The position numbers and the translations under genes were made by a program. Positions 8,026 to 63,558 of a DNA stretch of 64,000 bases are shown here, piece by piece. Within the stretch, counting starts at the first letter, position 1. Each line of letters opens with the position of its first letter. The stretch is taken from contig JAKQDR010000261.1 in assembly GCA_029573715.1 (NCBI GenBank), positions 1-64,000 of the forward strand. Direction: 5' to 3'. The DNA comes from a bacterium (GTDB taxonomy: Bacteria; Patescibacteriota; Microgenomatia; UBA1406; GWC2-37-13). The notes beneath the pieces are model-generated. The model was not told where the DNA came from, ran no database searches, and worked only from the letters and a program-made list of their open reading frames with translations.

Positions 8026-8107
8026 AGTAAATACGCACGATGATATTAGTGTTCAACATAAACGAATGCACATTCACAATGCGCACGGTTTATATATGGT
8101 TCCCCAT

Positions 8108-8128
8108 TCGTCAAGCTCAGGGTGACGA
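8108..8128. repeat. Short REP-like inverted repeat TCGTCA-AGCTCAGGG-TGACGA
   Basis: 6-bp arms in intergenic sequence. Confidence 0.4.
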
Positions 8129-8165
8129 TTTAAAGAGAATGAATGTTTATCTCCTTTGTCGGCAC

Positions 8166-8495
8166 TTACTCACTTCGTTTTTGTAAAAACTTCCGCATAT
8201 TGCGGGGAGATTTTGAATGACCACCTGGAGCTATACGGTGAACGACAGCTGTTGGCATCTCCCACACAGGAGTACCGGGAGCTATATACGTTTCTGAGCC
8301 TCCCATAGTTGCATTATGAGCGTTTCCATCTTGACCAATACGTGCCGCATCGGTCATGCCGCACGATGGCATACCCTCAGAGCCATAGATCTGCAATATT
8401 CTTAAGCGATGCTTTGCTTCTTGATTTCCCATATACAGTAATGTGTTATCACAGGGCATCTTACTATCAAAACGGGCTATGTCAAGAGTCCCCAA
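8166..8495 (-). CDS. Hypothetical protein
   Basis: 109-aa ORF, no recognisable domain. Confidence 0.35.
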   Translation of the reverse strand: MGTLDIARFDSKMPCDNTLLYMGNQEAKHRLRILQIYGSEGMPSCGMTDAARIGQDGNAHNATMGGSETYIAPGTPVWEMPTAVVHRIAPGGHSKSPRNMRKFLQKRSE

Positions 8496-8650
8496 TACAT
8501 AATTATCTTAATTCTTCGTGATCGTGTGAGGGTAATATTGACGATGCAAGATAAAATGAGAGATTGCTTGACATTCGTTTGCGTCATTGTTATGCTCCTT
8601 ATGGCAGGTATGAAGTATCGTTAGAAAAAATTAAAAGCGCAATGTCCCCC

Positions 8651-8667
8651 CTCACCAGTTTGGTGAG
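8651..8667. repeat. Hairpin CTCACCA-GTT-TGGTGAG
   Basis: 7-bp perfect stem in the glmS upstream region. Confidence 0.7.
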
Positions 8668-8688
8668 TGAGGAATACGAGGAAGAGGG

Positions 8689-8716
8689 CCCCCCTCACCA
8701 CATATGGTGAGGGGGG
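8689..8716. repeat. Hairpin CCCCCCTCACCA-CATA-TGGTGAGGGGGG
   Basis: 12-bp perfect stem with 4-nt loop; stem core shared with 8651-8667. Confidence 0.85.
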
Positions 8717-8737
8717 AGTCGGACCTTGCTGAGTTGT

Positions 8738-8784
8738 CCTTCGCCAGGCTCCCCGATACAATCGGGACAGGCAGGATGACATCA
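8738..8784. repeat. REP-like segment CTTCGCCAGGCTCCCCGATACAATCGGGACAGGCAGGATGACATC
   Basis: Contains CCCGAT-ACA-ATCGGG stem. Confidence 0.4.
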
Positions 8785-8948
8785 TGCAAGAGTAGCGGAA
8801 ACCCTCAGGTGTGATGGCACACCTTCAAGTAATCATTCAACACTGGTTCGCAAGAACCAGCACAAAGATGTTTGCCCGCCATGTACTTCAGCATACTCTG
8901 CTATGCGCGTAATATTACGCGTTTCTTACCAATCATTTCTTTTTTCTT

Positions 8949-10730
8949 ATGTGTGGGATTTTTGGATACAAGGGCCCCAACGCTAAGGCAGGGCAGATTG
9001 TGCTTGAGGGATTGAAGCGACTGGATTATCGGGGATATGACTCGTGGGGTGTTGCGGTGCAATGCTTGGATAATATATGGCTTCGAAAAGATATCGGTAA
9101 AATCAGTGACGTTGACCACATTGCTGATATGCCAGATGCGCACACGGCAATCGCCCATACCCGATGGGCAACCACAGGTGGTGTGACGCGCGCCAATGCA
9201 CACCCACATGCAAGCACTGACGGCTCATTTGTGCTCGCTCAAAACGGAATTGTTGAAAATTTCTCAGAACTTAAACAGGGCCTTCTGACAAAAGGATATA
9301 CATTTGTCAGCGAAACTGACACAGAGGTGATTGTACGATTGATTGAAGAAGAGCTGAAACTAAATACAGACTTCGTGAGCGCTATACGCCATGCATTTTC
9401 AAAGCTTACCGGCAGAAACACAATTATCGTGCTTACCAAATCCGGGGAGATATATGCGGCTCGCAATGGTTCACCGCTTGTTGTAGGAGTTAATACACAA
9501 ACCAATGAGGTGTATTTGTCTTCAGACACCCTTTCATTTGCACCATATGCAGATCAGATGATTGTAGTTGATAATGGCCAAATGGTGAAAGTAGACAATA
9601 CAAATACTATTACCATGTTTACCTTAGCTACCGGTGAGGTTTTTGAGTATACACTGGAAGCGATGACGGTGAAGGCCGATAAAATCGACAAGGAAGGATA
9701 TGACCATTTTATGATGAAAGAGATTCATGAAACGCCCTATGTGCTTAGACAAATTGTTGCGCAAGATGCTCAAAGTCTTCAGGCATTTGCCCATGCACTT
9801 CAACGTGCGCATCGAGTGTATGTTATTGGGTCTGGCACTGCCGGCATTGCCTCATATCAAATCGCATTCTACTTGCGTTTGTATGGAAAGCTTGATGCGG
9901 TAAGCCTTATTGGTGCAGACGTCCAGAGTTATTATGAAATCTTTCAGCCTGACGATATTATTCTCGCCCCATCACAAAGTGGGGAGACCGCAGATGTGAT
10001 AGAGGTGCTTGAACATGCAAAAGAGAAGGGAGTACAAATAGGTTCCATCATCAACATGCCCGGCTCTATTATGACGCGCATGTCTGACTATCCATTCATG
10101 TGTAATGCGGGCCCGGAGATTTGTGTGATGTCAACAAAAGTGTTTACCTCACAAATCGCATGGGGGTATCTTCTTGCAAAAACAGTGCAAGGAAAATATG
10201 AAGAAGGAATACAGAACCTGCAGACTCTATCAGTTATTGTCCAAAGATATCTGGATAACCAAAATAATCACAAAGCACTGAAAGCACTTGCAAACTACCT
10301 CTCAAAAAAAGAACATATATTCCTGCTGGGCAAATATCAGAACTTTGCCATTATGCAGGAAGGAATGGTGAAGATAATTGAGGCGTCGTACAAACATGCT
10401 CATGCCATACCGGCAGGTGATCTCAAACACTATGCCATTACGTTGATGGAGCAGGGGATACCCGTGATTGTCGCGGTGTCTGACGATGTGGTCAAAAATG
10501 ATGTAATTACTGCAATCAATGAAGTGCGCCTGCGAGGTGCGTATGTCATCGCCATAGCACACAAGCAGGAAGATTATTATGATTATTACATCCCCACCGA
10601 AGATGCAGGAGAAACCGATGCGATTGGCACCATCATTCCGCTTCAACTTACGGCGTACTATCTCGCGTTAAAGTTGGGAAACAACATCGATAAGCCGCGA
10701 AACATCGCCAAAAGCGTGACCGTAAAGTGA
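8949..10730 (+). CDS. glmS: Glutamine--fructose-6-phosphate aminotransferase (isomerizing)
   Basis: N-terminal MCGIFGYKG (Cys2 Ntn amidotransferase), two SIS domains, C-terminal KSVTVK. Confidence 0.97.
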   Translation: MCGIFGYKGPNAKAGQIVLEGLKRLDYRGYDSWGVAVQCLDNIWLRKDIGKISDVDHIADMPDAHTAIAHTRWATTGGVTRANAHPHASTDGSFVLAQNGIVENFSELKQGLLTKGYTFVSETDTEVIVRLIEEELKLNTDFVSAIRHAFSKLTGRNTIIVLTKSGEIYAARNGSPLVVGVNTQTNEVYLSSDTLSFAPYADQMIVVDNGQMVKVDNTNTITMFTLATGEVFEYTLEAMTVKADKIDKEGYDHFMMKEIHETPYVLRQIVAQDAQSLQAFAHALQRAHRVYVIGSGTAGIASYQIAFYLRLYGKLDAVSLIGADVQSYYEIFQPDDIILAPSQSGETADVIEVLEHAKEKGVQIGSIINMPGSIMTRMSDYPFMCNAGPEICVMSTKVFTSQIAWGYLLAKTVQGKYEEGIQNLQTLSVIVQRYLDNQNNHKALKALANYLSKKEHIFLLGKYQNFAIMQEGMVKIIEASYKHAHAIPAGDLKHYAITLMEQGIPVIVAVSDDVVKNDVITAINEVRLRGAYVIAIAHKQEDYYDYYIPTEDAGETDAIGTIIPLQLTAYYLALKLGNNIDKPRNIAKSVTVK

Positions 10731-10736
10731 GGGTGA

Positions 10737-11429
10737 TTATTCACAGTTCATACTCGTCCGACAAGATGCTTGGGCTTCAGTTGGCAAGCTGTCACACAGA
10801 GAACATGCGCCCATATCTGAGCTTTCATCTTCCGTGGGCTGTGTAACTGCTGGCATGGTGCCCAAATCCTTCATCATATTCGATACATCAGTAAATTGAA
10901 TATCAGTGGGGGGGACAAATGTGTTTGCATCCGCGATCCACACTTTACAGCGATAATCGGTTTTCTTGTTCATTTGCGCCATTTGCGGATTATCTTCCAC
11001 CGCTTCTTCACCCATATTTTGAATATCTTCAGTCATCGCGAATTTAACTCCTGTTTTTGAGACATCATCCCACGTGTAGGCAAATATACCATCGTTAATC
11101 ATATGTCCTGAGCTTTGAGTACCTTCTGAATTGGTGAGGGTGAATGAGCTTCGTATTTTGCCATTTGCCACATATGTTGTACCCTCTGTTTTTCCCATTG
11201 CTTCATCCGCATATGCAAAGGTACATTGCTGGCTTATTGTTTGAGTCATCAAATCTTTGAGTGATGAGAATACTGTTTGCTCTTGCGTATTGGTATCCAC
11301 CGCAACAGGTTCTTGTGGGGAGGTGTCATTCACTGATGTCTGGGGGTTCATTACTGTCCAATATGCCAATACACCAACGATTACGATTGCTGCGAATGTT
11401 AGGGGGACTATGAGTTTTTTCATATGCAC
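10737..11429 (-). CDS. Membrane-anchored hypothetical protein with Cys-rich C-terminus
   Basis: N-terminal TM MKKLIVPLTFAAIVIVGVLAYW; extracytoplasmic Thr/Ser-rich segment. Confidence 0.65.
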   Translation of the reverse strand: MHMKKLIVPLTFAAIVIVGVLAYWTVMNPQTSVNDTSPQEPVAVDTNTQEQTVFSSLKDLMTQTISQQCTFAYADEAMGKTEGTTYVANGKIRSSFTLTNSEGTQSSGHMINDGIFAYTWDDVSKTGVKFAMTEDIQNMGEEAVEDNPQMAQMNKKTDYRCKVWIADANTFVPPTDIQFTDVSNMMKDLGTMPAVTQPTEDESSDMGACSLCDSLPTEAQASCRTSMNCE

Positions 11430-11527
11430 GCATTATACTCCTCAATCACACTTTGTGTGAATCCTTGTCGGGTTTTGTACCCATAATCCCATGTGTGGAG
11501 TAACTTTAAGTACAATACCCACTATAT

Positions 11528-12211
11528 ATGCGTCATATGCGTCGATTAATTAGTCGCCACTCATGGGTCGTGGTGCTGTGTGTACTGCTTTTGGTGTATG
11601 CACATTCCGCCTATGAACAAATGCATGTGAAGAATCTCCCCCCATCTTCATCGACCATACCGCCCACACCCATCTCAACTCAAGGAGCCAAAGCGCCTAC
11701 TGTTGCACTTATTAACGAAACATCAGCATATGACCAGGCGGAGTCTGAAACGGATGATGGTGCAATGCCATCTCTTACACCTGCATATATCGTGCGTGTT
11801 GTTGACGGCGATACCATACGCGTACGTATTGAAGAAAAAGAATACACCGTGCGCCTTATCGGCATGGATGCACCCGAAAGCGTCGACCCGCGCAAGCCGG
11901 TGCAATGTTTTGGAAAAGAAGCTTCCGTCGTGCTTGCAGAGCTTATCGGCGGTAAGCAGGTTTGGCTTGCACCAGATGATACGCAAGATGAAAAAGACCG
12001 ATATGGCAGATTATTGCGCTATGTGTATCTTGACGATGATACAAACGTCGCCGAATACATGATAAGAAACGGCTTCGCATTTGAATATACCTACCGGGAG
12101 CCATACCGGTATCAAAAATTATTTAGGCAGGCTCAAGCGTCTGCAGAATATGAAGCAGTAGGCCTCTGGGCGCCCGATGCATGCAGTCAGCTTGAAAAGC
12201 CGGAGGAATGA
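11528..12211 (+). CDS. Secreted/membrane-anchored thermonuclease (SNase-like)
   Basis: VVDGDTIRV, VRLIGMDAPES, DRYGRLLRYVYLDD, AEYMIRNGFAF. Confidence 0.92.
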   Translation: MRHMRRLISRHSWVVVLCVLLLVYAHSAYEQMHVKNLPPSSSTIPPTPISTQGAKAPTVALINETSAYDQAESETDDGAMPSLTPAYIVRVVDGDTIRVRIEEKEYTVRLIGMDAPESVDPRKPVQCFGKEASVVLAELIGGKQVWLAPDDTQDEKDRYGRLLRYVYLDDDTNVAEYMIRNGFAFEYTYREPYRYQKLFRQAQASAEYEAVGLWAPDACSQLEKPEE

Positions 12212-12221
12212 AGTGCTGGCG

Positions 12222-12797
12222 CTACAGTGATAAAAGTCTATTTATCTCCGGCCGGTTGAACCCCACCACAACTTCATCATCAATCCACAGCTGAGGCACC
12301 CCCATTTGTCCTGACTTTTCAACCATCTTCATCGCTTGAGATTGATCTTGTGCGACATCAACATCTTTGAATGCAACATTTTTTTGGCGCAAATAGTCTT
12401 TCACCATGTGACAATAGGGACATGTTGGAGTAGAGAAGACCGTGACATTATGCTTCTTTTGATCCACGCTTTGTGCAGGAGATAAAACTGATTTAATGAT
12501 GTTTTGATATTCTTGCACCGTCTTAATGCCCATAAGCGTCTCAACGGCAACTCCTTTTTGAAATATGATAACGGTAGGCAAGCCCTTCATTTGATAATAT
12601 GCAGTAAATGACCGATTTTTATCCAAGTCAAGCTTCAAAAACTGCACAGGCTCCCTCTTAAATTGCTCACTGAGTTTATCTGTGATATGTGCTATCTGTT
12701 TGCACGGCTCGCACCACTCTGTTTCAACAACTAAAAATGTAACTCCTTCAAATGCGACCACATCGTGTTTGAACGAATCTAACGTGATTTCTTTCAT
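12222..12797 (-). CDS. Thioredoxin-glutaredoxin fusion
   Basis: N-terminal Trx with WCEPCKQ and cis-Pro GLPTV; C-terminal Grx with CPYC and GVPQLWID. Confidence 0.85.
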   Translation of the reverse strand: MKEITLDSFKHDVVAFEGVTFLVVETEWCEPCKQIAHITDKLSEQFKREPVQFLKLDLDKNRSFTAYYQMKGLPTVIIFQKGVAVETLMGIKTVQEYQNIIKSVLSPAQSVDQKKHNVTVFSTPTCPYCHMVKDYLRQKNVAFKDVDVAQDQSQAMKMVEKSGQMGVPQLWIDDEVVVGFNRPEINRLLSL

Positions 12798-13135
12798 GTG
12801 ATTTGTGAATAATTGGTAATAAATTTACTAAGCGACTGATGCGTGTGGTTAAGCGCCGTAGCCCATGCAGCAAGGTGCGCTTTGCCCTTCGGCGTGATGG
12901 CATACATCATACGAGCAGGGCCCAACGTACTTTCATGTTTCTTTTGTTTAATGTATCCGGCCAACTTCATACGCGCAAGTGAACGATATAAATTGCCTAT
13001 ATTCACACTGCAATGACAATCTTGAGTGAGTTTTCTCTGGAGCTCATACCCGTAGCTTGGCGATTGCGCCAATAAAAGCAGGGTGCAGGGTTCAAAGAAA
13101 TTTTCAAGTACGGCGAGAGAACAATGTTTTCTCAT
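12794..13135 (-). CDS. PadR-family transcriptional regulator
   Basis: FFEPCTLLLLAQSPSYGYELQRKL..GNLYRSLARMKLAGYI; 4-nt overlap with the Trx-Grx gene. Confidence 0.85.
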   Translation of the reverse strand: MRKHCSLAVLENFFEPCTLLLLAQSPSYGYELQRKLTQDCHCSVNIGNLYRSLARMKLAGYIKQKKHESTLGPARMMYAITPKGKAHLAAWATALNHTHQSLSKFITNYSQIT

Positions 13136-15692: not shown

Positions 15693-15746
15693 GACTCATG
15701 TGGTATCATGGGTTTCCATTATCATAAAACACTGTTTAGTTATCCT

Positions 15747-16928
15747 ATGAACACACCATCAATCATTTTTTATGGAGCAGATTGGTGCTCTGATTGCCGC
15801 AGATCCAAGGCTTTGCTTGATACACATCAAATCGCATATGACTATAAAGACATTGATGCAGACCCGCAACATGCAGCATATGTAGAACATATCAATAAAG
15901 GGCAGCGACGAATTCCCACTATCGTGTTTAGCGATGGTGCCATTTTGGTTGAACCGTCCGATGAAGAGCTCGCTCAAAAGCTCGGAATCGCTTCAACCAA
16001 GGTTGACAAAACACACGTGGATCTGGCGATTGTGGGGGGTGGGCCTGCCGGCCTTACCGCCGCAATTTATGCCACGCGTGAGGGGCTCAAGACTGCCATT
16101 TTTGAAAAAAAGGTGACCGGAGGGCAAGCTGCAACTACTGATTTTGTCGAAAACTATCCCGGATTTCCCGAGGGCATTAGCGGGTTTGAGCTTTCTCAGA
16201 AGATGTTTGCGCAGGCAGAGCGCTTTAATGCTCAGCTTATATCCGCACAAGTACAAAACATACATAATGAAGGTGAATACAAAAGAATTGAAACCGACGA
16301 TGGGGCGTATTTCGCTAAAGCAGTAATCATCACGGTGGGATCGGAATACAAACACACCGGAGCCAAGGGGGAGGATGCGTTGATAAGCCGTGGCATTCAT
16401 TACTGTGCGACGTGCGATGGGCCCTTTTATAAAGGGAAAAAAGTTGCAGTGATTGGAGCGGGTAACTCTGCGCTCCAAGAAGGTTTGTTTCTAGCGAAGT
16501 TTGTGTCACATATCACGTTTATCGTGCGCAGTGATGTGGTGCGTGCCAGTGATGTGCTCAAACAAAAAGTGCTCGCAGACCCTTCCAAATTTATCATTGC
16601 CTACCACACCAAAGTCAAAGAATTTGTAGGAGAAAAACGGCTTGAGAAGATGCTTTTGGAAAACACGACAACAGGCACTGTGTCAGAGATGCCCATTGAT
16701 GGGGTGTTTGTGTTTATTGGCCTGGTGCCACAAACGGCATTTCTCAAAGACATCGTGGCGCTGGATGAGCGAGGATTTGTGAAAACGAATGAACACCTGG
16801 AAACGAGTATGCCGGGAGTATTTGCAGCGGGTGACTGCCGTGAAGGCGCAATCGCCCAAATCGCATGGGCAGTGGGGGATGGGGCAAAAGCCGCCATCCA
16901 TGTGCGGGAGTATTTGCAGAGGGTATAA
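15747..16928 (+). CDS. trxB: Glutaredoxin-thioredoxin reductase fusion
   Basis: N-terminal Grx/mycoredoxin-like YGADWCSDCRRSKALLD; TrxR GGGPAGLTAAIYATREGL, HYCATCDGPFYKGKKVAVIGAGNSA, GVFAAGDC. The ORF track extends to 15708, but ATG 15747 starts the Grx domain. Confidence 0.93.
   Translation: MNTPSIIFYGADWCSDCRRSKALLDTHQIAYDYKDIDADPQHAAYVEHINKGQRRIPTIVFSDGAILVEPSDEELAQKLGIASTKVDKTHVDLAIVGGGPAGLTAAIYATREGLKTAIFEKKVTGGQAATTDFVENYPGFPEGISGFELSQKMFAQAERFNAQLISAQVQNIHNEGEYKRIETDDGAYFAKAVIITVGSEYKHTGAKGEDALISRGIHYCATCDGPFYKGKKVAVIGAGNSALQEGLFLAKFVSHITFIVRSDVVRASDVLKQKVLADPSKFIIAYHTKVKEFVGEKRLEKMLLENTTTGTVSEMPIDGVFVFIGLVPQTAFLKDIVALDERGFVKTNEHLETSMPGVFAAGDCREGAIAQIAWAVGDGAKAAIHVREYLQRV
16857..16919 (+). 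repeat. 3' end of trxB, copy A of a 63-nt direct repeat
   Basis: Matches 20541-20603 with 6 differences. Confidence 0.9.
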
Positions 16929-23512: not shown

Positions 23513-25081
23513 TTACGAGTTTGCGCCTATTGCCTCTGATATGTGCGTGTATCCATCGCGCTTGAGGAGTTCTTCGAGTCCCATGTTTATCTGCGCGACC
23601 AGTTGTGGGCCCTGATATATCATGCCGGTAATAAGCTGAAGAAGTGATGCCCCCAGCTTAATCTTAGTATACGCATCTTCTGCAGAGAATATCCCACCAC
23701 AACCGACAATTACGAATCTATCTTTATATTGTCGATACGCCAATCGAATAAGCTCATTTGACCGCTCATACGTCGGTTTGCCACTAAAGTTTCCTTTTCC
23801 AACTGACACAATTTCTGCAGAATCGAAACAGGGATTTTGTCGATCTTTTTGGAGATTGCCAAATATCACCCCTTTGGGCGAGTACTTTGCAATCACTGCA
23901 AGCATAGCTTCAACCTCGCTATTGGGTTTTTCAATCGGCATTTTCACAAACACCGGTCGCCTCAGTGAAAGCTCATCAACTGCAATCAGTAATTCTTCCA
24001 AATGTGCAGGCGTATAGAATTCAACATCACCTTTTAAATTTGGACAGCTAATATTCAATTCATAATATGAGTGGGGAAGAGCAGACTGCTCAAACTTGGT
24101 AAACGCAAAAACGATATCCTCAACACTCTTTTTTTGAGTATTCAGTTCTAATGAATTTGTCCTTCCAATACTAATTCCATAGGGTATCGAGTTACACACA
24201 CCTTGAAGGTGTGTGTGATGTTTTAGTTTTCCTAAACGCATAATCGTGGCATCGGCTCCTAAGTTTTTGAAGCCTTTGTTTACGAGAAGCGCGCGTGATT
24301 TGGGCAGTCGCCCCAACATGGGGCGCATGTTGCCTTCATAGGCACCATTTGTGATAGTACCCACCGTTTGCCATCCAAACCCCCATACATCGAGTGATCT
24401 GGTCAACATGGCTTCATAATCAAATCCTGCTGCAAGACCAATGGGGTGATGAAATGGAATGCCCACGATGGTTTGAGTGAGCGCTGGTTGTTTCGATGAA
24501 ACGAGGCTTCTTACCACTTTTCGTACAATAGCATTACCACCAAATCGCTGGCCCAAAGCTATCATTGTGACATGCACTTTTTCGGCATCAAAAAGAAATA
24601 GAAACGGCTTCACGATAGTACGATACATATGCCCAAAGAGCCACAAAAACAGTATCTTGCGCTCCCGAGAAAACTCATAGTGCACGAGAATAAAGAGAAT
24701 GGTGCTTATGACCGCGGACAACGTGCAATACAGGCAAAGCGCACCAATGAGAAAAACCTGGATATACATAAAATATGCAGAGGCAAGAAGTCCAAGCACT
24801 GATTGGACGATGAGCCAATAACGCGCCAGTTTGCTTCGGGTTATTAGGTGGGCGAGAGCACCCCCGGCAAATATGCTGTAGTGCACCAGGCCAATAAGCG
24901 CAAGGGGAATACCAATGATAGTAGCATATTCACTGCGTAAAACTGCACCGCAATCGTTAAATAATCCTCCCACGGCACACGGAGGCACCATGTCTTTGTA
25001 ATGCTCCATCGTCAAATATCCCGCATCAAGAATGCCCAAGAATGCAGTGAAAAAAATGAGATGGGGAAAATACTTTTTCAT
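23513..25081 (-). CDS. pyrD: VKOR-dihydroorotate dehydrogenase (class 2-like) fusion
   Basis: N-terminal VKOR: CAVGGLFNDCGAVLRSEYATIIGIPLALIGL...GALCLYCTLSA; C-terminal DHODH: GLAAGFDYE..GFGWQTVGTIT..NISCPNLKG..GCGGIFSAEDAYTKIKLGASLLQLITGMIYQGP; uninterrupted frame. Confidence 0.9.
   Translation of the reverse strand: MKKYFPHLIFFTAFLGILDAGYLTMEHYKDMVPPCAVGGLFNDCGAVLRSEYATIIGIPLALIGLVHYSIFAGGALAHLITRSKLARYWLIVQSVLGLLASAYFMYIQVFLIGALCLYCTLSAVISTILFILVHYEFSRERKILFLWLFGHMYRTIVKPFLFLFDAEKVHVTMIALGQRFGGNAIVRKVVRSLVSSKQPALTQTIVGIPFHHPIGLAAGFDYEAMLTRSLDVWGFGWQTVGTITNGAYEGNMRPMLGRLPKSRALLVNKGFKNLGADATIMRLGKLKHHTHLQGVCNSIPYGISIGRTNSLELNTQKKSVEDIVFAFTKFEQSALPHSYYELNISCPNLKGDVEFYTPAHLEELLIAVDELSLRRPVFVKMPIEKPNSEVEAMLAVIAKYSPKGVIFGNLQKDRQNPCFDSAEIVSVGKGNFSGKPTYERSNELIRLAYRQYKDRFVIVGCGGIFSAEDAYTKIKLGASLLQLITGMIYQGPQLVAQINMGLEELLKRDGYTHISEAIGANS
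24194..24216. repeat. Palindrome ACACACACCTT-G-AAGGTGTGTGT inside pyrD
   Basis: 11-bp arms; encodes HHTHLQGV. Confidence 0.8.
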
Positions 25082-26667: not shown

Positions 26668-26922
26668 ATGCAGTACGTCGTATACATGGTCCGCTGCGCA
26701 GATAATTCCCTCTATACCGGCATCACTACCGATATAACAAGGAGGATTAATCAACATAACGGAGTGCGTCCAGACGGCTCTCGCTACACACGGTCGCGCC
26801 GGCCGGTGACTCTTGTGTACACAAAAAATACCCGCTCGAAAGCAATGGCACTTCGTCTTGAAGCGCGGATAAAGTCAAAATCGAAAACCTTGAAGGAACA
26901 ATTGATCAGCAGACAAGGTTGA
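26668..26922 (+). CDS. GIY-YIG endonuclease domain protein
   Basis: YVVYMVRCADNSLYTGITTDITRRINQHNG. Confidence 0.92.
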   Translation: MQYVVYMVRCADNSLYTGITTDITRRINQHNGVRPDGSRYTRSRRPVTLVYTKNTRSKAMALRLEARIKSKSKTLKEQLISRQG

Positions 26923-27564
26923 GTTGTTCCGGTTACGAACGCAAAAAAATATACACCATACCATAGCTGCACTTACCACCGCTCCAAAAGCGATGAGTAC
27001 TGCGTCACGTAAGTGTTCGCGCCTGACTCCGGGTGCAAAGAAGGGCTTGAGAAAGCCAAAAAGTATGAGGCCTCCCAAAAGCGCTGTTCCCAATAGCGCC
27101 ACTTCACCGGTATAGGCTTCTGAGGCTTTAAGTGTATGAAGCAGTGATAGGGGCAGCGCAAACCACACCAGCGCATGAATAGCGCGCCATCGAACCCCCA
27201 GCTTGCGCTGAATGAAAAAATTGGAAGTAATAAGCAGAGAGAAAAAAATGAAAGACCCGATATATCCGGGGAGGATGCTTTGTTGTAATGCATTAGCTAT
27301 GTCTGCATTAAGCACGGAATTGAATGCAATAGTCCCATGAAGCAAAATAAATATGCCTGAAACAATCCCAAAATCTCTGCGGTATCTACTCAATTTTTTA
27401 AAATGAATAGGGATGAGGGTGAATAGAAGAAAAAAAAGCCCTATGTAGATTGAAGATTTCATGGGAGCTATTCCCAAAGCCCCAAACATAACTATCAACC
27501 CCATATTGACTCCAACGATTCCAAGCCACAATGGAATGTGTTTACTCAGCGAAATTGAGTGCAT
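26875..27564 (-). CDS. Ferric reductase-like / MsrQ-like transmembrane protein
   Basis: RYRRDFGIVSGIFILLHG...LGVRWRAIHALVWFALPLSLLHTL, multiple TM. Confidence 0.6.
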   Translation of the reverse strand: MHSISLSKHIPLWLGIVGVNMGLIVMFGALGIAPMKSSIYIGLFFLLFTLIPIHFKKLSRYRRDFGIVSGIFILLHGTIAFNSVLNADIANALQQSILPGYIGSFIFFSLLITSNFFIQRKLGVRWRAIHALVWFALPLSLLHTLKASEAYTGEVALLGTALLGGLILFGFLKPFFAPGVRREHLRDAVLIAFGAVVSAAMVWCIFFCVRNRNNSTLSADQLFLQGFRF

Positions 27565-61818: not shown

Positions 61819-62835
61819 TTACGTCTTTTGTAAATAGATATCGCGCACAACCGCCTCAAGATCAAGCTCTTGTATGGTGATGTCTGCGACCGGGAGCTTT
61901 TTCAAAAGTGCCGCCGCGACTTGTTTAACGGTAAGGCTTTCCACTCTGAGTTTCACTGCGAGGGGCTCGTATGAGTCTACAATGCCATACTGCGTAAGTG
62001 TTTCTTGAGGAATGGGAGTTAAAAAAGTCAAAAAAAGCACTTTATGTTTGACATATTTGCGCGTAAGCTCATGGACACTTCCGTCATACACGATGACCCC
62101 GTGATTGATGATAATGATGCGCTTACACAAACGCTTAACGTCGTCCATATAATGACTGGTGAGAATGATTGTCGCATCATATTGTTGGTTGTAGCGAGCA
62201 ACAAAATCACGTAAGTGTTGTTGCATAACAATATCAAGCCCTATGGTCGGTTCATCCAAAAACAGGACTTTTGGCTTGTGAAGTAATGCCGCCATAAGCT
62301 CACATTTCATCCGTTGTCCCAACGAAAGATTGCGCGGGGGTTGGTGTATCTCATCGCGTACATCAAACAATTCGACAAATTCACTGATGGTCTTTTGAAA
62401 TACGTCAGGTGGTATATCGTAAATTTCCTTGTTTAAAAGAAATGTATCATACACGGGGAGCTCCCACCACAGTTGTTGTTTCTGTCCCATCACCAAGGTG
62501 ATTTGCTTCAAAAATGCATGGGGCCGAGTAAAGGGCTCAAAGCCCAAGACACGCACCGAGCCTGCGCTTGGATACAACAGGCCCGAAAGCATTTTGAGTG
62601 TAGTGGTTTTGCCTGCCCCATTGGGCCCGATAAACCCAACAAGCTCGCCCGCACTAATGGAAAAGTTTACTTCATTTACCGCCACTTTTTTAATGGTTTT
62701 TGGGAGTAGTAATGACCTGAGGCTTCGCTCTTTCCCACGCACCTGAAACGATTTGGACAAATTAGACGCTTGAATGTGGGCTGGGTGCATAAAAATAAGC
62801 CGAAATAGAGCCTTAGTATAGCACTTTTGCCACAT
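61819..62835 (-). CDS. ABC transporter ATP-binding protein
   Basis: GFIGPNGAGKTTTLKMLSGLL, LSLGQRMKCELMAALLHKPKVLFLDEPTIGLD. Confidence 0.95.
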   Translation of the reverse strand: MWQKCYTKALFRLIFMHPAHIQASNLSKSFQVRGKERSLRSLLLPKTIKKVAVNEVNFSISAGELVGFIGPNGAGKTTTLKMLSGLLYPSAGSVRVLGFEPFTRPHAFLKQITLVMGQKQQLWWELPVYDTFLLNKEIYDIPPDVFQKTISEFVELFDVRDEIHQPPRNLSLGQRMKCELMAALLHKPKVLFLDEPTIGLDIVMQQHLRDFVARYNQQYDATIILTSHYMDDVKRLCKRIIIINHGVIVYDGSVHELTRKYVKHKVLFLTFLTPIPQETLTQYGIVDSYEPLAVKLRVESLTVKQVAAALLKKLPVADITIQELDLEAVVRDIYLQKT

Positions 62836-62883
62836 ACATCAAATGGTTTACTTTGTGACATATCCGTGTACAATGAGCACCAT

Positions 62884-63558
62884 ATGAATATAAAAATTAT
62901 TGCTATTTCAATCGTGGCTATCGTTGGATTCCTATTTGTTTCATACAGCGCCTTTAATAAACCAGAAACAGTAACATTTGATGGTGTTTCCGAGCTTCGC
63001 ACACCTGAGCAAGCTTCAGCAGCAGGCACGCTTGTGGATAGGGCAAAGGGTTCCGGCCCAAACGTTATGGTTGAATATAGCGATCTCCAATGTCCCGCTT
63101 GCAAGTCTTTTCATGAATATATCGAGCAAGAAAAAACCAACGACGCCGAATTCGCCCGCATTATGAGTGAAGAATATACGGTTGTATTCCGGCATTTTCC
63201 TTTGGTTTCAATTCATCGGAATGCCCAGCTTGCAGCTCAGGCTGCAGAAGCCGCAGGTGCCCAAGATGCATTCTTCCCGTTTATAGATAGTGCTTTCGCA
63301 CGACAGCAAGAATGGGGAAATAGTGCAACGGCCCGTGATGTTTTTATTGAAATCGCTCAAGAACTAGAACTAGATGTGGAACAGTTTTCAACGGATATTG
63401 ATTCTCCTGCTGTGAAAGCCAAAGTCGAATCCGACTTGTCGACTGCCTTGAGCATGGGCCTTAATTCCACTCCAACATTTTTCATTAATGATCAAAAAAT
63501 AGGTGGCTTTGGAAGCTTTGAAGATTTCAAAGCTATTATCGTACAGTCAGCACAGTAG
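62884..63558 (+). CDS. DsbA-family thiol oxidoreductase with N-terminal TM
   Basis: VEYSDLQCPACKSFHEY; STPTFFINDQKIGGFGSFEDF. Confidence 0.92.
   Translation: MNIKIIAISIVAIVGFLFVSYSAFNKPETVTFDGVSELRTPEQASAAGTLVDRAKGSGPNVMVEYSDLQCPACKSFHEYIEQEKTNDAEFARIMSEEYTVVFRHFPLVSIHRNAQLAAQAAEAAGAQDAFFPFIDSAFARQQEWGNSATARDVFIEIAQELELDVEQFSTDIDSPAVKAKVESDLSTALSMGLNSTPTFFINDQKIGGFGSFEDFKAIIVQSAQ

Follow-up and report, generated by a model that had tools for sequence, protein, structure and literature searches.

A VKOR–dihydroorotate dehydrogenase-like fusion with an altered substrate pocket in Woesebacteria-like Patescibacteria, and its possible role as a quinone relay in disulfide formation

VKOR and DsbB require quinone, the resulting quinol normally being re-oxidised via the respiratory chain, and VKOR and class 2 dihydroorotate dehydrogenase (DHODH; TIGR01036/PyrD) each ordinarily reduce quinone. 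The VKOR–thioredoxin fusion of Synechococcus (PDB 3kp9/4nv2) has a four-helix VKOR core, two cysteine pairs and a conserved Ser six residues past the second Cys, all of which are shared by the protein described here, but it carries an outer thioredoxin domain where ours would carry a cytosolic flavin domain. In CPR bacteria, the lineage group to which our host also belongs, VKOR has been described beside an MdbA-like thiol oxidoreductase with a likely disulfide-forming role that our protein may share; a flavin fusion is not mentioned in the text of that paper (PMC6744442). Some fungal class II DHODHs also bear a catalytic Cys, which accompanies anaerobic function without being its sole cause (PMC8520639). 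The class 2 fold, the exchange of Ser for Cys and hosts that do not depend on respiration are common to the fungal enzymes and our protein, although the fungal enzymes still make orotate and have no VKOR. The architecture of VKOR joined to a DHODH-like domain was not found in the open-access papers searched.

The window analysed here, a DNA stretch of 64,000 nucleotides, comes from a 1.79-Mb Patescibacteria genome assembly that is 91.7% complete. The original prediction that a single ORF joins a complete VKOR domain to a class-2-like DHODH was borne out by Pfam, NCBIfam, AlphaFold2 and Foldseek. The ORF has an ATG start and zero internal stops, and its VKOR half contains the following features:

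23513–25081, minus strand: whole VKOR/DHODH-like fusion ORF, 522 amino acids (ORF reading with Pfam/NCBIfam; 53 distinct homologous fusions)
24683–25060, minus strand: VKOR domain, residues 8–133, four predicted membrane helices (PF07884; AlphaFold2 helices; matches to PDB 4nv2/3kp9)
24950–24979, minus strand: first VKOR cysteine pair, C35...C44, in the predicted outer loop (invariant in 53/53 fusions)
24725–24736, minus strand: active site C116-L-Y-C119 at the start of helix 4 (invariant in 53/53 fusions)

Pfam places VKOR (PF07884) at residues 8–133 (E = 4e-26; 92.1 bits against a cut-off of 27.5) and DHO_dh (PF01180) at residues 201–506 (E = 5.5e-47; 160.8 bits against 27). The NCBIfam class 2 profile TIGR01036 (pyrD_sub2) scored 227.6 bits, above its cut-off of 200, and the class 1 profile TIGR01037 scored 60.5 bits, far under its cut-off of 270. 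As the TIGR01036 match begins at residue 156, it takes in the N-terminal quinone-tunnel helices of class 2 enzymes, which separate VKOR from the barrel. AlphaFold2 gave a confident model of the full-length protein (mean pLDDT 89.6, pTM 0.87). Its VKOR half matched VKOR-type structures (4nv2/3kp9, Synechococcus VKOR) and the best Foldseek matches of its DHODH-like half were class 2 DHODHs without exception (TMt 0.84–0.93).

The fusion is a real and widespread architecture among these tiny, uncultured bacteria. A search of relatives, Candidatus Woesebacteria and allied Patescibacteria including one named Woesebacteria genome (L066), found full-length single-frame fusions at 47–59% identity in more than 30 genomes, and a class-wide search added more. 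The 53 distinct fusion proteins all retain four VKOR cysteines and belong to one Patescibacteria class (Woesebacteria-like), in which they span seven family-level groups (f1, f2, f9, f10, f19, f25 and f38). The fusion is thus not confined to one assembly, and its recovery from independent genomes rules out an assembly or frameshift artefact. Split or broken frames were seen in a few genomes (G011, G044 and G071). The two genes also occur separately side by side, with a 3 bp gap (L169), a 78 bp gap (L183) or an overlap (L050), so the link between VKOR and the DHODH-like protein appears to be kept in different forms. Elsewhere in the clade, 11 standalone DHODH-like genes (L172–L182) have no VKOR nearby, and several of the genomes that encode them lack any VKOR match, which suggests that the flavin half is able to work without VKOR. 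Fused and standalone DHODH-like proteins interleave in a quick tree with 13 label changes, at least 4 of them forced; the tree of the VKOR half contained too few alignment columns to bear on a single fusion event.

The VKOR half has the hallmark layout of its family in all 53 fusions, with a CXXC at the start of helix 4 and a CXnC between helices 1 and 2 (AlphaFold2 helices 5–28, 51–81, 84–112 and 117–136), and both of the cysteine pairs that had been read from the sequence are present. The loop joining helices 2 and 3 and the stretch that follows helix 4 carry basic residues, which suggests that the C-terminal domain is cytosolic; from this charge sidedness and the predicted helices we place the VKOR cysteines on the outer side of the membrane and the flavin domain on the inner side. 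VKOR is frequent in the host's class (160/385 genomes), and some genomes encode a separate VKOR in addition to the fused one (G003, G044, G052, G059, G180 and G209). It could be argued that the two halves are joined only for anchoring or for matched amounts, each using the general quinone pool. The standalone DHODH-like genes, which recur inside the fusion clade and occur in genomes without VKOR, fit such an arrangement, but the four invariant cysteines indicate that the VKOR half is more than a mere anchor and the coexistence of fused and separate VKOR within one genome points to a specialised task for the fused one, so we consider uncoupled halves improbable. A candidate partner for the VKOR half is encoded 38 kb from the fusion gene:

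62827–63558, plus strand: DsbA-like protein (Thioredoxin_4) with a CPAC motif and a putative anchor at its N-terminus (PF13462; strongest such match in the genome)

The DHODH-like half contains the following features:

24482–24628, minus strand: class 2 DHODH N-terminal helical (quinone-tunnel) segment, residues 152–200, with the invariant H170 at E. coli H19 (PRK05286/TIGR01036 matches starting at 152–165)
23564–24481, minus strand: DHODH-like FMN barrel, residues 201–506 (PF01180; Foldseek)
24416–24418, minus strand: Y222, in place of the orotate/FMN-contacting Lys (E. coli K66; alignment)
24275–24283, minus strand: V267-N268-K269, equivalent to E. coli N111-R112-M113 (alignment)
24038–24055, minus strand: catalytic loop NISCPN, with C346 at the position of E. 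coli S175 (C in 53/53 fusions)
23852–23854, minus strand: L410, in place of the orotate-contacting Thr (E. coli T247; alignment)

We aligned the 53 fusions with 19 standalone clade members, 11 distant or intermediate CPR/DPANN members and 67 canonical class 2 enzymes, numbering the pocket by the aligned E. coli K-12 PyrD (N111 = V267, N116 = K272). The roles of K66, N111, N139, N172, N177, N246, T247, H19, R102 and Y318 are those which we take them to have in DHODH structures. In common with class 2 DHODH, the fusions have the fold, the tunnel helices, the barrel glycines, FMN-site K217, orotate-site N172, N177 and N246, and quinone-site H19 and R102 (H170 and R258, invariant among the fusions). 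They differ from it in K66>Y, N111>V, N139>S (FMN site), S175>C, T247>L and Y318>I, as well as in the VKOR fused in front and a location outside pyr operons. Position 222 is Tyr in all fusions and in 19/19 clade standalones but Lys in 67/67 canonical enzymes and 11/11 intermediates, while position 410 is Leu in all fusions and 11/11 intermediates but Thr in 66 of the 67 canonical enzymes. The position of N111 holds Val in 52 fusions and Ala once, and the quinone-site Tyr is absent, Ile484 taking its place in 52 of the 53 (the remaining row is gapped). Only six columns across the domain are invariant inside the clade and inside canonical class 2 yet differ between them, and four of these are the ligand positions K66, N111, N139 and T247 (hypergeometric p ~0.002). 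These substitutions are strong evidence that the substrate pocket has changed, and the DHODH-like half is probably not a dihydroorotate dehydrogenase. A DHODH-like enzyme that uses dihydrouracil instead has been shown (PMC10395836).

The intermediate CPR/DPANN group has K222 and Y269 where the fusion clade has Y222 and K269. Lys and Tyr have thus apparently been swapped, which suggests, as far as sequence can tell, that the pocket still requires a positive charge. A wider group of standalone CPR/DPANN DHODH-like proteins (L072–L078 and L080), from Andersenbacteria, Uhrbacteria, Vogelbacteria, Saccharibacteria, Woesearchaeota and Pacearchaeota, shares V267, C346 and L410, and these proteins may likewise not be true PyrD.

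The original prediction had also drawn attention to the Cys in the catalytic loop, a residue more typical of class 1 enzymes. The residue is indeed there (C346), but it deserves no special weight, since 21 of the 67 canonical class 2 enzymes, mostly from Bacteroidota and with an otherwise normal pocket, share it. Judged by this alignment, a class 2 enzyme with Cys here is unusual but not exceptional, and we rejected it as the key novelty of the fusion.

Does the fusion nevertheless make orotate? It may still be a genuine dihydroorotate dehydrogenase, its pocket rearranged and VKOR acting as its membrane anchor, that works in pyrimidine synthesis in at least some genomes. In keeping with this, the protein passes the curated class 2 cut-off, retains N172, N177, K217 and N246, and has an invariant K269 that may replace the Lys lost at 222 and so preserve the positive charge for a carboxylate. 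Moreover, pyrB is somewhat commoner in carriers of the fusion than in non-carriers among near-complete family genomes (a weak association, p ~0.01), so that a pyrimidine role stays conceivable, and two pyr operons lack a recognisable pyrD (L157 in G020 and L163 in G071). Against it, K66, N111 and T247 are all replaced, and mutation of the equivalent Lys abolished the function of a class 1A DHODH (PMC10395836). At least seven carriers have another PyrD, either within a pyr operon containing pyrB, carA, carB, pyrC and pyrE and/or pyrF (G037, G041, G032 and G010) or as a separate class 1 PyrD together with pyrK/pyrE (G046, G003 and G012), and the fusion gene was never found beside pyr genes among the loci read. 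Twelve of the 27 near-complete fusion genomes, the host included, have no pyrB above cut-off. Profile searches of the 91.7% complete host assembly found no TIGR00670 match for pyrB, only a 28-bit partial match for pyrE and no second DHODH/pyrD. The proposed link to pyrimidine synthesis thus finds little favour: such a role is unlikely in the host genome, and across the clade we regard a true dihydroorotate dehydrogenase as a realistic but unlikely reading.

Other observations concern the pyr loci of relatives. The operon without pyrD in L157 (G020:C2:160000-179000, positions 8041–13022) holds FrdA/FrdB fumarate-reductase-like genes and an aspartase/fumarase-like gene, and dihydroorotate may be oxidised by another route in this case. 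An aspartase-like gene also lies within the pyr operon of L160 (G041:C14, 2932–4221). Divergent PyrD proteins of 355–371 amino acids occur in pyr operons (L160; L154, 7565–8632; L161, 3567–4682), and the two that were scanned, from L154 and L160, score far under the NCBIfam cut-offs. DHODH-like ORFs of about 635 amino acids were seen in G029:C392 and G026:C1 (L162, 5675–7576); the one in G029 also matches pyrE, suggesting a PyrD–PyrE fusion.

Neither haem-copper oxidase subunit I (COX1) nor cytochrome bd subunit I had a match in the 73 family genomes, while controls were positive. The original prediction had called for a check of quinone synthesis genes, and none were identified in the host genome. 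The presence of UbiA was rejected as a sign of quinone synthesis there, given that the family identities differ: of the host's two UbiA-family proteins, one resembles a carotenoid-type prenyltransferase, encoded beside CrtI, and the other a decaprenyl-phosphate phosphoribosyltransferase, and neither fits MenA/UbiA. Quinone, if used, would therefore be taken up or made by an unrecognised pathway. The CrtI phytoene desaturase gene beside the UbiA-type prenyltransferase gene (L153, G000:C157, 5254–7632) suggests carotenoid synthesis in the host.

It had further been proposed that the two halves are coupled through a shared quinone. The conserved fusion of two families that meet quinone and the retention of the class 2 quinone-site His and Arg speak for such coupling, but oxidation of DsbA driven by dihydroorotate does not balance: quinone reduction is the usual direction of both halves, and electrons from dihydroorotate could support the oxidation of DsbA only if one half were reversed. 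Rather, we hypothesize, at a probability of roughly 40%, that the fusion is a relay of two domains that links envelope thiols to a cytosolic substrate through quinone and probably drains the electrons of disulfide formation. The VKOR half would take electrons from a DsbA-like partner and hand them to membrane quinone. The DHODH-like half, on the cytosolic side, would retain FMN, together with the quinone tunnel of class 2 enzymes, alongside a rebuilt substrate pocket, and would re-oxidise the VKOR-made quinol and deliver its electrons to an acceptor in the cytosol. The simplest balanced order would then run from thiols to VKOR, quinone, FMN and the cytosolic acceptor, and the relay could act as a local substitute for the quinol oxidase that is seemingly absent from these cells. 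In proposing this order we infer the presence and origin of the quinone, its sharing by the two halves, FMN binding, the direction of flow and the acceptor.

The same chain could also run in reverse, with a cytosolic substrate reducing FMN and quinone and the quinol driving VKOR backwards to reduce envelope disulfides in the manner of DsbD/CcdA. Quinone sites in both halves and the lack of a detected oxidase would suit this direction, and quinone reduction is the normal direction of class 2 flavin domains. However, by reduction potentials taken from general knowledge, quinol reducing the VKOR disulfide would be uphill with ordinary quinones. Bacterial VKORs are, moreover, known as quinone-reducing disulfide formers (PMC11208910, PMC6744442), and we consider reverse flow very unlikely.

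If the relay drains electrons from disulfide formation, the fusion might be a self-contained, respiration-independent disulfide-forming machine by which fermentative symbiotic bacteria form disulfide bonds without an electron transport chain, a broader idea that we hold as doubtful but worth stating. The fusion offers one concrete, testable protein for electron disposal after disulfide formation in Patescibacteria that seem to lack a quinol oxidase. It also serves as a warning that labels of "quinone-dependent dihydroorotate dehydrogenase" in these genomes, though above the curated cut-off, may hide another substrate. Fumarate was entertained as the acceptor, a guess from the aspartase genes in the pyr operons of relatives, and set aside: loss of K66 and N111 disfavours a carboxylate unless K269 substitutes.

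Gene neighbourhood gave no clue to the substrate, no neighbour being consistently shared across the fusion loci. In the window itself the neighbourhood is rich in redox genes, with a thioredoxin–glutaredoxin fusion (12222–12797, minus strand) and a glutaredoxin–thioredoxin reductase fusion (15708–16928, plus strand). An MsrQ/ferric-reductase-like membrane protein, whose match lies below cut-off (E = 2.5e-8), is encoded 1.8 kb from the fusion (26875–27564, minus strand), and this putative haem protein could be another quinol user.
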